Positions 34,766-41,683 of a stretch of 64,000 nt of DNA are shown here, in pieces. The first letter of the stretch is position 1. Each line of letters opens with the position of its first letter. The stretch is from Bowmanella denitrificans (lineage in GTDB: Bacteria; Pseudomonadota; Gammaproteobacteria; Enterobacterales; Alteromonadaceae). The notes under the pieces are model-generated. The model saw only the letters and a program-made list of their open reading frames with translations, had not been told where the DNA came from and did no database searches. The stretch spans positions 496,001 through 560,000 of the forward strand of contig NZ_PEBU01000001.1 of NCBI RefSeq assembly GCF_002887595.1. The letters are read 5' to 3'. Made by a program: the position numbers and the translations under genes.

Positions 34766-36514
34766 TCAGGCGGGAGCATCGCACTCCAATTTCTGTGAAT
34801 GCATTAAACGTCGATACAGGGTATCTGCTTTTTGGCTAAGCTCTCGGTGACTGCCATATTCCACCAGTTCGCCCCGATCTATAACCACCACCCGGTTTGC
34901 TTTAACTATTGTAGACAGACGATGAGCAATCATTATGGTGGTACGTCCCGCCATTAACCGGTCCAATGCATCCTGAACCAGCTTTTCGCTATCACCATCC
35001 AACGCACTGGTCGCTTCATCCAGGATCAGGATCCTTGGGTTACGCAACAGTGCTCGAGCAATGGCAATACGTTGTTTCTGCCCACCGGAAAGTTGCACCC
35101 CCCGGTCTCCCACCATGGTGTGGTAACCATCCGGGAAGTTGAGAATAAAGTCATGGGCATTGGCTTGCCTGGCTGCTGCTTCAACCTCCGCCTGACTGGG
35201 CCGACCACCAGGTACCGCAAACGCAATATTGTCGTACAAACTGCCCCAGAACAGGGAGGGCTCCTGTTCTACTATCGCCATTTGACTGCGCACATCTGCA
35301 AGATTTAGCGCAGCGAGTGGCTGCCCATCCAGCAAAATCCGGCCACTATTTGGTTGGTAAAATCCCAGCAACAAATTTGCCAAGGTGGACTTGCCCGCAC
35401 CGGAAGGCCCAACCAGGGCAATTTTCTCGCCGGGTTGAATAGTCAGATTAAAATTACTTAACGCCAGGTTTTGCGGGCGTTGTGGGTAACTGAAACTCAG
35501 GTGTTCAATAACGATATGCCCCTGTAAACACAACGGGGTCTGGCTAACTTTAGCGGGCACAGAACTGTCATCAATAATGCTGAAAATTCTGTCGGTTGCC
35601 CCCAGCGTTCGCATCCAATCGCTCCAGAAACCACTTACCGCTTCTGCAGAAGAAGCGACCATGGCGGCATAAATAACAAAGCTGGTAAGTTCTCCCACCG
35701 TCAACATTCCCTGGCTAATAAGGCTGCCGCCAAGCCACAATGTAAACAGCAGTGCCATAAACATCAGAAAAGATGCCAGACCATTAAACATTGCAAGGAA
35801 ACCTGTGCATGACAACGAGCTGTGCAAGGCCTTGTCTGTTGCCTGCTGATAATGCTGCTGTGCCAGCGACCATTGGTTAAACGCATGTACCAGCCTGGCA
35901 TTAGCAAAATTTTCATGAGCCACTCTGCCACATTCAGCCTGACAGTCTTGTATGGCCTGAGATCGAAGGCGAATGCGCTGGCCCAGCCACCGCCCCAGAA
36001 ACATACTGGTTGGAATAAAAAACAATAATCCCAAACATAGCATCGGTGAAATGCTCAGCAGCATAATCAAGCCACCAATACAGATGCATAGGGAGCGCAG
36101 TGAAATGGCCAGTCCCATGGTCAGGGTGTCATGCAAAACTTCCGTATCAGCATTCAATCTGTTGGTCATCTCACCGACATTATGCTGATCAAAAAAGGCG
36201 ATAGGCTGGCAGAGCAGAGACTGGTGCAGCAAAGTTCGCACTTTAGCCACAACGAGTAAGCCGGCAGACTCAAACAAATAGTATCGTAACGCAGCGGCAC
36301 CCGCCTGTAAGGTCAACAACACAAGCATCACAACTGCATAGTCTGACAGCCAGCCGCTCGCCATTGCCGCATCAATGTTGTCAATAAAGTGCGATAACGC
36401 TTTGGGATAATAAAGCTGGATGGCAATGGTAGTCAGCATTGCAACCAAGCCAAGAGCCAGTCTGGACGCCAGGCCTTTTAACAAAAACAGGCGTTTTAAG
36501 TGCGAGTTGCTCAA
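34766..36514 (-). CDS. ABC exporter (fused permease-ATPase) of the RiPP cluster
   Basis: A 582-aa half-transporter. The TMD covers about 15-300 with six helices; the NBD has Walker A GPSGAGKST (369-377), Q-loop VEQEPSLFWGSL, signature LSGGQ (475-479), Walker B ILILDE (495-500) and the H-loop His531. It belongs with lipid and peptide exporters of the MsbA/LagD type but has no N-terminal C39 peptidase domain, so leader removal must be done by another protein. It starts with TTG, overlapping the preceding stop by 4 bp (TTGA), and is the last gene of a seven-gene run beginning with two precursor peptides. Its likely cargo is the matured peptide. Confidence 0.9.
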   Translation of the reverse strand: MSNSHLKRLFLLKGLASRLALGLVAMLTTIAIQLYYPKALSHFIDNIDAAMASGWLSDYAVVMLVLLTLQAGAAALRYYLFESAGLLVVAKVRTLLHQSLLCQPIAFFDQHNVGEMTNRLNADTEVLHDTLTMGLAISLRSLCICIGGLIMLLSISPMLCLGLLFFIPTSMFLGRWLGQRIRLRSQAIQDCQAECGRVAHENFANARLVHAFNQWSLAQQHYQQATDKALHSSLSCTGFLAMFNGLASFLMFMALLFTLWLGGSLISQGMLTVGELTSFVIYAAMVASSAEAVSGFWSDWMRTLGATDRIFSIIDDSSVPAKVSQTPLCLQGHIVIEHLSFSYPQRPQNLALSNFNLTIQPGEKIALVGPSGAGKSTLANLLLGFYQPNSGRILLDGQPLAALNLADVRSQMAIVEQEPSLFWGSLYDNIAFAVPGGRPSQAEVEAAARQANAHDFILNFPDGYHTMVGDRGVQLSGGQKQRIAIARALLRNPRILILDEATSALDGDSEKLVQDALDRLMAGRTTIMIAHRLSTIVKANRVVVIDRGELVEYGSHRELSQKADTLYRRLMHSQKLECDAPA

Positions 36515-37074
36515 GACGCGACCTCCATTTCACTGCTAACCTCATCCATTTGCTGCATAAAGGACTGCCAGTCTTCATCGCCAATGGTACCCGCCGCCTG
36601 CAGATATCCGGCATGATCAATAAACAGATAAAAGGGACTGGACCAGGAGGGATTCAAAGATTGATAAGCTTTCTTGTCCAGTTTTAACAGGTGATCAATC
36701 AACGGACTGTCAGTTAAAAAACGCCGCAAACGCTTGTCCGGCTCGGTGCTGAGCAGCCAGAGCCTGACACCGGCCTGTTCGGCCAATGGTGGCAAAGTTG
36801 ACAGCTGTGGTAACTTCTCTCTGCATTTGTCACAACGACTGGATAAAAAAAGTAAAACCCTGGCCTGCTGATCTGCCTCAAGCTCTACTTTGCAACCACT
36901 CAGCCATTGCCTGGCTTTTGGCAGCACCAGCCGCTCTCCTGGTGGCACTTGCGTCAACGCAACAGGAGGCGGAGGATTATGGATACGATAATACAAATAG
37001 AATGTCAGTTTCAGATTGAGTGCTAATCCCAATGCCAACAGCAACAGGCAAAGATAAAGTAACGATTGCTCCAT
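36511..37074 (-). CDS. Membrane-anchored thioredoxin-like protein (MauD/TlpA type)
   Basis: A 187-aa protein with an N-terminal TM anchor (about 3-28) and an extracytoplasmic thioredoxin fold. The redox motif is CDKC (Cys81, Cys84) in VLLFLSSRCDKCREKLPQL, the TlpA/MauD position; the cis-Pro region is probably WSSPFYLFID. MauD-type proteins work with MauE in periplasmic disulfide formation. Its ATG shares a base with the mauE-like stop (TAATG), and the ABC exporter overlaps its own stop, so the three are translationally coupled. In this cluster it likely oxidises or isomerises the two conserved Cys of the peptide. Confidence 0.85.
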   Translation of the reverse strand: MEQSLLYLCLLLLALGLALNLKLTFYLYYRIHNPPPPVALTQVPPGERLVLPKARQWLSGCKVELEADQQARVLLFLSSRCDKCREKLPQLSTLPPLAEQAGVRLWLLSTEPDKRLRRFLTDSPLIDHLLKLDKKAYQSLNPSWSSPFYLFIDHAGYLQAAGTIGDEDWQSFMQQMDEVSSEMEVAS

Positions 37075-37604
37075 TAATGTTTGACTCCTGTCGTATCCCT
37101 TAATATTTCCATTAACTCATGAAAATGCATTAACAACGGGTTCAATGCCAATGCCAGGGCTGCCAGAAGAAGGAGTTCGGAAAGTAGCAAAGACGGTGGA
37201 ACAGGATTGAGTAAGTAAGTGACTGTCAGGCCAATCAGCAACAGATTTCTTAGCAAATCGAAGGCAGAAACGGGTCTTTGTGACGAACCAAAACAATGAC
37301 AACGGATCAGGTCTCCCTGCAGGTATGGCCAGGCTAGTCTTAGGGTAAAAAATGTGAGCATCAGCGATGCACACAGCATACTCCAGTACCCCAACCAATT
37401 GCTGAGCATCGTTATCGCCACCGCCCCCTCAATTAACGCCAGCGCGGGTCCCAACCAGTTGGCCAACGGCACAGGTACAGCAAAGGTTTCGTGCAGATTG
37501 CCACGAAAGGCTGACATATCCCGGCTTTTACTCCAGGCGGCCTGTAAAAACAGCAATCCAATCATGCAGCGGATCAGCTCACTAATATATACAGCGTCAA
37601 TCAT
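37074..37604 (-). CDS. MauE/DoxX-like redox-associated membrane protein
   Basis: A 176-aa protein with four to five TM helices and the MauE hallmark CxCFG: Cys102 and Cys104 in DLIRCHCFGSS, placed in a loop after TM3. The N-terminal RCMIGLLFLQAAWSK and FRGNLHETFAVP are also family features. MauE supports disulfide formation in the methylamine dehydrogenase small subunit and recurs in peptide-modification clusters. It overlaps the protease gene upstream by 8 bp and is immediately followed by the thioredoxin-like gene, forming a MauE-MauD-type pair. Confidence 0.87.
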   Translation of the reverse strand: MIDAVYISELIRCMIGLLFLQAAWSKSRDMSAFRGNLHETFAVPVPLANWLGPALALIEGAVAITMLSNWLGYWSMLCASLMLTFFTLRLAWPYLQGDLIRCHCFGSSQRPVSAFDLLRNLLLIGLTVTYLLNPVPPSLLLSELLLLAALALALNPLLMHFHELMEILRDTTGVKH

Positions 37605-38487
37605 GACAGTCCACCAAGCTGTGCCAACATCCTGCTAACATGGCATGGTTGCGCTGACGAACCAGTACACTTTTATTGCTGGCCAATAGGGCATCACACC
37701 ATGGCTCATCCGCAGAATTGCGTTGCGCGCCTCCTACGGTTGCCTGTAATTGACGAGAAACCTGCCAGGCTAAGGCTTGTACATCTTGATGGGTTACACA
37801 GTTCAGCCCCATTCTCTGCATTTCCTGACCACTCAGGGCATAGCCATGTGAATGATAGCCACTGACCAATTCTTCAATCAGTTGAGCCCGTGTTGCATCC
37901 TCTAAATGGGGTAATTGATAGGCAAGCAATTCCATGGCTATTTGTTTGATTTCAAGGGTCGTACGATAGAAAGCAGTAAGACTGGGCGGGAAAATGCTCT
38001 GACAAAGCAGTTGCAAGGATTCTTGCCTGGCCTGTTCGGCTTCAACACCAAACCACTCCTGACACATTGCGCCAAACAAACGAACGTCTTCACTGGACAT
38101 GGCAACTTCTTGTTCCGTTTCTGTGCCACCATGCAAGTGAGGGTCAATAGGGGAAAACATGGCTAACGGACCAGCAAGAATTTCATCGCCAACAAGGCAT
38201 AGCAAAGTCGCGGCAGATTGACACACATAAGGCACGATAAAACCCAGCTTATCGCAGTGCTGACGCAACAATAAGGCAATACGCCTGGTTGCATTCACTT
38301 CGCCCCCCCGGGCGTGAACTAATACGTCCAAACGCTCGCATGGGCCCATGCTTTGCAGTTGGTCGTACAACTGGGGTAACAACTCCATTTCCAGATGGGA
38401 GGCAGCCAGCACCAGGACTTTGCTGTTTCGCTGTTCTTCAACCGCACGAACTAACGAGAAAAACGACGTCGTTTCTAACTGCGACAT
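37597..38487 (-). CDS. SDH/ClpP-fold serine protease, candidate leader peptidase
   Basis: A 296-aa protein of the serine dehydrogenase proteinase/SppA-ClpP superfamily. The crotonase-like core shows VLVHARGGEVNATRRIALLLRQ, then VPYVCQSAATLLCLVGDEI with the likely nucleophile Ser91, then GPLAMFSPIDPHL, the conserved SPIDP turn. No signal peptide or TM segment, so it is cytosolic (or membrane-peripheral). Residues after about 240 look variable. It overlaps the ATP-grasp stop by 13 bp. Because the ABC exporter lacks a peptidase domain, this enzyme is the best candidate to remove the leader; a role in quality control or immunity is the alternative. Confidence 0.82.
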   Translation of the reverse strand: MSQLETTSFFSLVRAVEEQRNSKVLVLAASHLEMELLPQLYDQLQSMGPCERLDVLVHARGGEVNATRRIALLLRQHCDKLGFIVPYVCQSAATLLCLVGDEILAGPLAMFSPIDPHLHGGTETEQEVAMSSEDVRLFGAMCQEWFGVEAEQARQESLQLLCQSIFPPSLTAFYRTTLEIKQIAMELLAYQLPHLEDATRAQLIEELVSGYHSHGYALSGQEMQRMGLNCVTHQDVQALAWQVSRQLQATVGGAQRNSADEPWCDALLASNKSVLVRQRNHAMLAGCWHSLVDCHD

Positions 38488-39500: not shown

Positions 39501-39521
39501 GTCCCGGTCCTAGACCGGGAC
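39501..39521 (-). terminator. Perfect hairpin between precursor and ATP-grasp genes (attenuator or RNA-processing site)
   Basis: GTCCCGGTC (39501-39509), loop CTA, GACCGGGAC (39513-39521): a 9-bp perfect stem with 3-base loop, followed on the minus strand by CTTTCTAAG. The T-tract is short, so it is likely a partial terminator or 3'-end stabiliser giving more precursor than enzyme message, a common RiPP design. Confidence 0.7.
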
Positions 39522-39537: not shown

Positions 39538-39711
39538 CTAGCAATAAATGCCCGCATCACGGGCACCAGTGTAGATATTGTCAGCACGAGTAAAGCGGCC
39601 TGAACAACCTGCAGTTGATACTTTGCTTCTGACTTGCCAGGACTGCTTGGCAGGCGCAGATTGTGAAGCAACTTTAAAGGCAAAAATTTTATTATCTGAT
39701 TGTTTATTCAT
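39538..39711 (-). CDS. RiPP precursor peptide 1 (57 aa)
   Basis: A 57-residue peptide with a very strong ribosome site (AAGGAGAT) before the ATG at 39711. The leader has FAFKVA at 10-15, resembling the PFFxRFL recognition helix of microviridin leaders. The conserved part begins WQVR at 25-28, then AGCS (34-37), RAD (42-44), YTG (47-49), RDAG (51-54) and the final Cys57. Cys36 and Cys57 enclose a 22-residue core. The paralogue upstream keeps the same landmarks. Possible ester donors conserved in both are Ser37 and Thr48; acceptors are Asp44 and Asp52. I expect cleavage near Gly35/Cys36, but this is not proven. Confidence 0.85.
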   Translation of the reverse strand: MNKQSDNKIFAFKVASQSAPAKQSWQVRSKVSTAGCSGRFTRADNIYTGARDAGIYC

Positions 39712-39807
39712 GTCTATCTCCTTGAAATAAAAATTTCCAGACACAATCGTCCGACAAGCCAAACAGGCCTTACACACCTGGGCGAAAATAGTCTGGAACA
39801 GTTGTTA

Positions 39808-39831
39808 CCTTAGTCTTTGACAGATCTAAGG
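39808..39831 (-). other. Short hairpin between the two precursor genes
   Basis: CCTTAG (39808-39813) pairs with CTAAGG (39826-39831), with two further pairs inside. It lies just after the upstream precursor stop and could stabilise or process the transcript. Modest stem; function inferred. Confidence 0.4.
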
Positions 39832-39835
39832 GGGG

Positions 39836-40006
39836 TTAGCACCACATACCGGCATCACGACGACCGGTCCAGGGGTGATCTGCACGATAGTCCGGTAACG
39901 AGCAACCAGCTACGGCAACGTTTTTACGGACTTTCCATTGATTGGTGGATTTGGTTTTTTCTGCCAGTTGAAAGGCAAAAGGCTTGGTAGGGGATTGTTG
40001 TTTCAT
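39836..40006 (-). CDS. RiPP precursor peptide 2 (56 aa), first gene of the cluster
   Basis: Translated from ATG at 40006, with AAGGAG at ideal distance. The 56-aa product has PFAFQLA at 9-15 (leader motif), WKVR at 24-27, AGCS at 33-36, RAD at 41-43, WTG at 46-48, RDAG at 50-53 and terminal Cys56. Cys35 and Cys56 bound a 22-residue segment exactly as in precursor 1, while the residues between the shared blocks differ (LPDY against GRFT, HP against NI, R against A). This pattern, a conserved frame with variable loops, is typical of paired RiPP precursors. The small size, strong ribosome site and adjacent ligase make it a genuine gene despite its length. Confidence 0.86.
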   Translation of the reverse strand: MKQQSPTKPFAFQLAEKTKSTNQWKVRKNVAVAGCSLPDYRADHPWTGRRDAGMWC

Positions 40007-40333: not shown

Positions 40334-41683
40334 ATGCAAGAATTTGACTATATCTGTATAGGCGGTGGCAGCGGCGGTATCGCCTCGGCCAACCGCGCAG
40401 CCAGCCACGGTGCCAACGTTGCCCTGGTCGAAGCGAATAAAATTGGCGGTACTTGTGTGAATGTGGGTTGTGTACCCAAAAAGGCCATGTGGTTTGGTGC
40501 CCAGGTGGCCGAGGCCATTAAGCTCTACGCCCCGGATTATGGCTTTGACCTGACCCTGAACAATTTCAGTTGGAAAACCCTGGTGGACAGTCGCGAGGCT
40601 TATATTGAGCGTATCCACGGTTCATATGATCGGGTACTGGGCAACAACAACATCCAACGTATTCAGGGTTTTGCCCGTTTTGAGGATAGCAATACCATTG
40701 AGGTTAATGGCCAACACTATCGCGCCAAACATATTCTGATTGCCACTGGCGGCAGACCTAGCTGGCCGGATGTACCGGGTGCTGAGCATGGCATAGATTC
40801 GGATGGCTTCTTTGCCCTGCGCCAGCAGCCCAAACGAGCATTAGTGGTAGGTGCCGGTTACATCGCCGTTGAACTGGCCGGTGTATTACATAGCCTGGGC
40901 ACCCAAACCCATCTGGCGGTACGTAAAGAAAAGCCACTACGCAGTTTTGATCCTATGCTCAGCGATACTCTGGTAGAACTGATGGCGCAGCATGGCCCTA
41001 AGTTACATACCCACAGTGATGTACAGCGGGTGGATAAGCGCGGCGATGGCGCATTGGATGTCACCTTTAAAAATGGTCAGAGTTTACTGGTGGACTGCCT
41101 GATTTGGGCAATTGGCCGCAAGCCTGCCACCGATAAGCTCAATCTGGACAAAGTCGGGGTAGCCACTGATGCCATTGGCTACATCCAAGTGGATAAATTC
41201 CAGAACACCAGCACCCCAGGTATTTATGCGCTTGGTGACAACACCGGGCAAGTTGAACTGACCCCTGTGGCGGTCAAGGCCGGTCGCCTGCTGTCAGAGC
41301 GGCTGTTTAATGGCCAGAGCCAGGCCCATATGGACTATAACCTGGTGCCGACTGTGGTATTCAGCCATCCCACCATCGGCACCATCGGTCTGACAGAACC
41401 CCAGGCGGCTGAGCAGTATGGACAAGACAACATCAAAGTCTACAACTCCAGTTTTGGCGCTATGTACACTGCCGTTACACGCCATCGGCAGATTACCCGG
41501 ATGAAGCTGATTTGCGCGGGCCCAGAGGAAAAAGTGGTAGGTTTGCACGGTATAGGTTTAGGCATGGATGAAATTCTGCAGGGATTTGCCGTGGCCATAA
41601 AAATGGGCGCGACCAAAGCCGATTTTGATGCCTGCGTCGCCATTCACCCCACCAGTGCCGAAGAATACGTGACGATGCGCTAA
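40334..41683 (+). CDS. gor: Glutathione reductase
   Basis: A 449-aa FAD flavoenzyme (E. coli Gor 450) that reduces oxidised glutathione with NADPH. FAD site [16 protein letters not shown], redox-active disulfide [18 protein letters not shown] Rossmann motif [15 protein letters not shown] followed by Arg-containing [11 protein letters not shown] for NADPH choice, second FAD motif IYALGDN, and the C-terminal catalytic [12 protein letters not shown] with His-Glu pair. Length and start match the family. Divergent from the RiPP operon with no evident link, though both concern thiol redox. Confidence 0.97.

Follow-up and report, generated by a model that had tools for sequence, protein, structure and literature searches.

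Two short ORFs on the minus strand of the window (the whole 64,000-nucleotide stretch of Bowmanella denitrificans DNA analyzed here) stand before a gene for an ATP-grasp ligase, which raises the question of what peptide such a locus would make and by how many bonds that peptide would be closed. The initial annotation had taken the ORFs for twin precursors with a 22-residue Cys-to-Cys core, in which two ester rings would lie inside a disulfide-closed loop. Judging from the comparison of sequences, the gene set very probably makes small ring peptides with one enzyme-made side-chain bond, one sulfur bridge and a highly variable loop.

The operon and its two precursors

The operon is tight and lies entirely on the minus strand (Table 1). 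The precursors are followed by the ligase, a protease, a MauE-like protein, a thioredoxin-like protein and an ABC exporter, and the frames overlap from the ligase on. The twin precursors were borne out as real ORFs with shared landmarks: AGCS, RAD, (Y/W)TG, RDAG and a terminal Cys are equally spaced in both, and the segment from the inner to the last Cys is 22 residues long in each. The ATG of the 57-aa precursor is internal to a longer ORF of 79 aa that begins with GTG.

Table 1. Features of the cluster and their positions in the window.
Feature	Position	Strand	Basis
Precursor 1, 57 aa	39538..39711	-	AAGGAG 6 bases 5' of ATG; family profile match
Core of precursor 1, Cys36-Cys57	39541..39606	-	Lactone Ser37-Asp52 and disulfide Cys36-Cys57 proposed; residues kept in 73/73 cores, bonds inferred
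Precursor 2, 56 aa	39836..40006	-	AAGGAG 7 bases 5' of ATG; family profile match
Core of precursor 2, Cys35-Cys56	39839..39904	-	Lactone Ser36-Asp51 and disulfide Cys35-Cys56 proposed; residues kept in 73/73 cores, bonds inferred
Perfect 9-bp hairpin between precursors and ligase gene	39501..39521	-	Sequence
ATP-grasp ligase, MdnC/CdnC type (graspetide synthetase), 336 aa	38475..39485	-	Homology, fold, motifs
ClpP-like SDH-type serine protease, 296 aa, proposed leader peptidase	37597..38487	-	Pfam SDH_protease 48.4 bits (cut-off 31.3)
MauE-like membrane protein, 176 aa, CxC	37074..37604	-	Pfam MauE 80.1 bits (cut-off 27)
Thioredoxin-like protein, 187 aa, CxxC, N-terminal hydrophobic stretch	36511..37074	-	AhpC-TSA 19.8 bits, below cut-off 26
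ABC exporter, 582 aa, membrane and ATPase domains	34766..36514	-	Domain matches; C39 peptidase match absent

The likeness of the twins exceeds chance, as a family profile built from 19 loci of the contig search and from the loci of sampled genomes gave 126 precursor matches (some places being counted twice), all of which adjoin related ligases. These proteobacterial matches comprise 94 distinct precursors and 73 distinct Cys-to-Cys cores; beside the 60 ligase matches of below 37% identity, the profile found no precursor. The 22-residue core holds for both window peptides but not for the family, whose cores measure 17 to 30 residues from Cys to Cys, and a fixed length was rejected. A lipoprotein reading, with xAGC as a lipobox, was also rejected, since inspection by eye found no hydrophobic stretch upstream in either precursor. 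The microviridin core motif TxKxPSD was absent from both precursors by eye, and the same inspection did not find PFFARFL, which PMC8939145 gives as a motif of microviridins.

A possible role of the 9-bp hairpin is to set the ratio of precursor to enzyme, although this is a guess. A promoter scan returned 6 hits (8.1 in shuffles) and a terminator scan 9 (5.9 in shuffles, sd 2.2); neither result was used. A gene for a pyridine nucleotide-disulphide oxidoreductase (window 40334-41683) lies divergently beside the cluster and is probably unrelated to it.

Ligase identity and distribution

The ligase matched CdnC (8.1e-41) and MdnC (5.4e-40) over its full length. In a fold search with its structure model (pLDDT 89.2), the top 32 PDB chains were graspetide synthetases (5.9e-31 to 2.4e-16), followed by ArgX/RimK at 4.2e-14. 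The protein scored above the Pfam cut-off for the MvdD pre-ATP-grasp domain and below the NCBIfam cut-offs for MvdC (175 of 425 bits), MvdD (205.3 of 475) and GRASP_SAV_5884 (230.5 of 350). D250-x-R252, E301 and N303 were invariant in 15 of 15 sequences; a DFR motif is described as critical for graspetide synthetases in PMC13097080. With a synthetase of this type adjoining, a leader that is kept and a core that varies, the view of the ORFs as graspetide-type precursors was upheld, and by sequence the product is a graspetide.

The small ORFs might instead encode thiol carriers or partners of redox proteins, as each holds two Cys and redox genes are adjacent. This reading is scarcely credible: the adjoining gene encodes a graspetide synthetase, the leader is conserved while the loop is hypervariable, and a single genome can carry nine copies.

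A single ligase match was found in the window genome, and none in the other four genomes of the host genus. In the host family, 62 of 295 genomes matched at E 0.001, and eight of the 295, including the window genome, at E 1e-70 or better. Two broad phylum samples, of 396 and 301 genomes, yielded nothing further: in each, the one genome that matched at E 1e-58 was that on which the search had been centred. The ligase matches at L024 and L091 each contain one in-frame stop codon.

One conserved pair of side chains between terminal cysteines

We then compared the 73 cores. All of them follow C-[S/T]-x(9-22)-[D/E]-x-G-x-x-C, with a freely varying loop in between. The residue after the first Cys, proposed earlier as the donor, is Ser in 37 cores and Thr in 36; the acid of the RDAG motif, proposed as an acceptor, is Asp in 72 and Glu in one. 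Both proposals were therefore retained, as was that of a Cys pair at the two core ends, which occurs in 73 of 73 cores and is accompanied by thiol-redox genes in the operon. The core ends at Cys in 67 cores and at Cys-Ala in six. The statement that a C-terminal Cys is unusual among graspetides stands for this end position and not for Cys itself, since the graspetide precursor ThfA has a native Cys76, which was replaced to avoid disulfides (PMC13003496).

Conservation of the cores reflects shared ancestry in part. In the 34 cores of less than 60% identity, Ser/Thr at position 2 and the acid at its position were both still at 100%, whereas the other positions examined (2-9 relative to the first Cys and 2-12 relative to the last) reached at most 38% hydroxyl and at most 33% acidic residues. 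Shuffling within these 34 cores gave approximately 10^-29 to 10^-30 per position, a figure that ignores shared ancestry. Mean pairwise identity among nine Massilia paralogues was 0.27 in the loop, 0.54 in the leader and 0.64 in the clasp, i.e., the residues at the two core ends. In Massilia sp. BJB1822 (L002:5926-7944), nine precursors in a row precede one ligase, and their loops are very different, as in a natural library. Hellea (L019:7230-7895) has three cores with three Cys each, an odd number unlike the rest of the family; in this locus the genes for MauE and the thioredoxin-like protein are found upstream, in the opposite orientation.

The second ester, which had been assigned to the Thr of TG and the Asp of RAD, did not hold as a conserved feature. 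When homologues were checked, the Cys residues were retained and the Thr/Asp pair was not: RAD occurs in 10 of 73 cores, and TG stands directly before the acid motif in two, both of them from the window. In 17 cores, the residues present do not allow a second ester. Two cores have only one acid and 15 only one Ser/Thr, and ten could form neither a second ester nor a Lys amide. On the other hand, 63 of the 73 contain at least two possible donors (Ser/Thr/Lys) and at least two acceptors; therefore, further rings are possible in single members, those of the window included. Two ester rings in the window peptides themselves, joining Ser36/37 and the Thr of TG to the two Asp, would agree with the equal spacing of these four residues in both cores and with the several rings that PMC13097080 describes for most known graspetides. 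Given the family counts above, we consider this quite unlikely.

The ligase might also form a bond of another kind, namely a thioester with Cys or an amide with Lys or an N terminus, or might activate the C-terminal carboxylate. According to PMC13097080, amides and non-native thioesters are within the capability of graspetide synthetases, and the peptide end is strongly fixed, at Cys in most cores. However, nothing but Ser or Thr occurs at position 2 and nothing but Asp or Glu at the acid position, Lys is fixed nowhere among the positions examined (2-9), and six cores end in Cys-Ala, which makes such a bond very improbable. A single conserved macrolactone and a single disulfide, forming a constant clasp that displays a variable loop on graspetides made by this operon, is the reading that we consider likely.

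Association of protease and redox genes with the ligase clade

Accessory genes were compared in wide loci (at least 7 kb, non-redundant), from which L076, L078 and L080 were dropped as copies of L007, L008 and L015 and in which the window was not counted. By profiles of the accessory proteins, the protease, MauE and thioredoxin-like genes occurred together in 23 of the 24 wide loci of the ligase clade; the one locus that departed from this was L010, a MAG contig of 7.3 kb. Nine of the ten loci outside the training of the protease profile were positive, L010 again being the negative one. Among nine wide loci with more distant graspetide ligases, none had the protease or MauE, and L020 alone had a thioredoxin-like match, 4 kb off and on the other strand. 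Across all locus sizes, with copies included, tblastn found the protease with 66 of 70 ligase matches of at least 37% identity and with 0 of 60 below that value. The four without it were L009, at a contig end, L010 and L013, on short contigs, and L134, for which the wider stretch L140 has the protease. In a tree of 103 ligases, which was quick, had long branches and was used for the clade claim only, all 50 protease-linked entries grouped with L009, L010, L013 and L134 (SH-aLRT 99).

Candidate precursors beside actinobacterial ligases outside the clade have one core Cys (L136, L137) or two (L138), and their loci lack the three accessory genes; therefore, Cys alone does not imply these genes. 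A strict rule that Cys and redox genes come together was rejected, as L138 contradicts it: MauE and thioredoxin-like matches are absent there despite a two-Cys candidate precursor.

The CxC of the MauE-like protein (C102 and C104) and the CxxC of the thioredoxin-like protein (C81 and C84) were each invariant in 13 of 13 sequences. In the protease, S91, D115 and H214 were invariant in 15 of 15 and would be the catalytic residues. His214 follows Asp115, so that the order appears to be Ser-Asp-His; Asp115 stands at what we take to be the position of the His in ClpP. The structure model of the protease fell into the ClpP/SppA fold with moderate likeness (E 3.7e-5; TM 0.41 by query length), and a sequence search of the PDB returned no match at E up to 1.

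With only this moderate likeness to ClpP/SppA, the protease could serve immunity instead of release. It would then be a self-protection copy or a model of the target, and an outside protease would free the peptide. PMC13097080 reports that the proteinases of some graspetide clusters are suggested to be self-resistance copies, and the fold of the protease is compatible with such a role. However, the protease and ligase genes share 13 bases, the protease tracks the ligase clade, and an exporter without a C39 peptidase match implies that a leader peptidase is needed. We regard self-protection as doubtful and leader removal as the preferred role of the SDH protease.

Proposed pathway and relation to known systems

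By analogy with known graspetides, a leader of the FAFxLA type would recruit the ATP-grasp synthetase, which would form one macrolactone by linking the hydroxyl of the Ser/Thr that follows the first Cys to the acid (Asp, in rare cases Glu) at the fifth position ahead of the last Cys. The two end Cys would form a disulfide with the aid of the MauE/thioredoxin pair, most likely at the membrane or beyond. The SDH protease would cut off the leader, perhaps at AG/Cys, and the ABC protein would export the peptide. The predicted product has its C-S/T bound by an ester and a disulfide to D-x-G-x-x-C, with a loop of 9-22 free residues. Its target is possibly a protease, which is a guess from known graspetides.

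The family shares full-length ligase homology, fold and the D-x-R motif with established graspetide systems (MdnC/MdnB of microviridins, CdnC of chryseoviridin, PsnB of plesiocin and PruB of Streptomyces coelicolor), as well as a short precursor, the FAFxLA leader motif and the kept Ser/Thr and Asp/Glu of the core. Unlike them, it has a single conserved donor-acceptor pair rather than several, an obligatory Cys pair, its own MauE/thioredoxin and SDH protease genes, and a ligase below the NCBIfam family cut-offs. To our knowledge, no earlier graspetide pathway has its own disulfide machinery, and that of the window would be the first. Likeness to the Mau maturation proteins MauE/MauD lies in the MauE family (Pfam) and the CxxC thioredoxin-like neighbor; the substrate here would differ, being a peptide of 17-30 residues, and Pfam found no methylamine dehydrogenase subunit among the seven cluster proteins.

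In a search of the literature on ATP-grasp ligases or graspetides with disulfide, MauE, thioredoxin or SDH proteinase, only the decRiPPter paper was relevant, for MauE. There, mauE beside ATP-grasp genes in Streptomyces was taken as a sign of RiPP modification, and MauE is cited as suggested to aid disulfide formation (PMC7794033). The mauE families described in that paper share with ours the ATP-grasp and mauE genes (one family also mauD) and Cys-rich precursors, which have at least 8 Cys as against two in the window. By description, which is the level of this comparison, an SDH protease is not named for them.

PMC13097080 reports a serine proteinase in more than half of graspetide group 9, one of 43 RODEO groups; its main text contains none of the words "Cys", "disulfide", "thioredoxin" and "MauE". 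There may be overlap between the window family and either group 9 or the mauE families of decRiPPter. PMC8939145 discusses conserved Cys as thioether donors, with "disulfide", "ClpP" and "thioredoxin" absent from its main text. It also describes two clusters of precursors in which no more than one ester could form, and relatives may be among these. "ClpP" and "SDH" are likewise absent from the main text of a review of leader removal (PMC10885120). The ester-plus-disulfide layout was not found in the literature searched, and the genes of the family may already be listed in a published table. The proposed disulfide-clasped layout within graspetides is apparently new.

If the proposal is true, an enzyme-made ester and a disulfide would share one small constant clasp, and the free loop would offer a ready-made display format, with up to nine precursors per genome. 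The graspetide ring would be readable from the sequence, as one donor and one acceptor are conserved, and the SDH protease would likely represent a leader peptidase of a new kind.

Relatives in other phyla

Ligases of 38-45% identity from Actinomycetota and Chloroflexota adjoin precursors that retain the motif F-[A/G]-[F/L/M] in the leader and have a Trp later in the sequence. Thirteen distinct Cys-containing candidates were chosen by leader motif, by how many Cys they have and where, and in part also by an acid towards the end; which residue follows the first Cys played no role in the choice. Two were dropped, one at L135 and one at L010, as neither adjoins a ligase. All 11 that were kept have Ser/Thr after the first Cys and an even number of Cys (2, 4, 6 or 8; only L011 has 8), and in five the core contains just one acidic residue, which either immediately follows the last Cys or precedes it by six residues. 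The 11 relatives are not independent, as one genome contributed three (L014 twice, L140) and another two (L016), and L141 is nearly a twin of L142. L143, with just two Cys, has the layout C-T...D-x-G...C, and L140, counter to the rule, has its acids after the last Cys.

Tentatively, and with a little less than even confidence, the cluster may mark a separate graspetide lineage that extends over Pseudomonadota, Actinomycetota and Chloroflexota. Its members would all need one enzyme-made lactone together with one to four cystines, giving a clasp with two bolts and a hypervariable loop, its own MauE/thioredoxin oxidation and release by the SDH protease. The three-Cys cores of Hellea, the acid placement at L140 and the two Cys without redox genes at L138 run counter to the reading of one lactone beside one disulfide, and L138 also lowers confidence in the separate lineage. 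The Deinococcus locus L135 is without protease, MauE and thioredoxin-like genes. This locus, on plasmid pDrdI of Deinococcus wulumuqiensis (L135:5672-5887), encodes a ligase of 36.6% identity and a neighboring Cys-free ORF of 71 aa with a similar leader.
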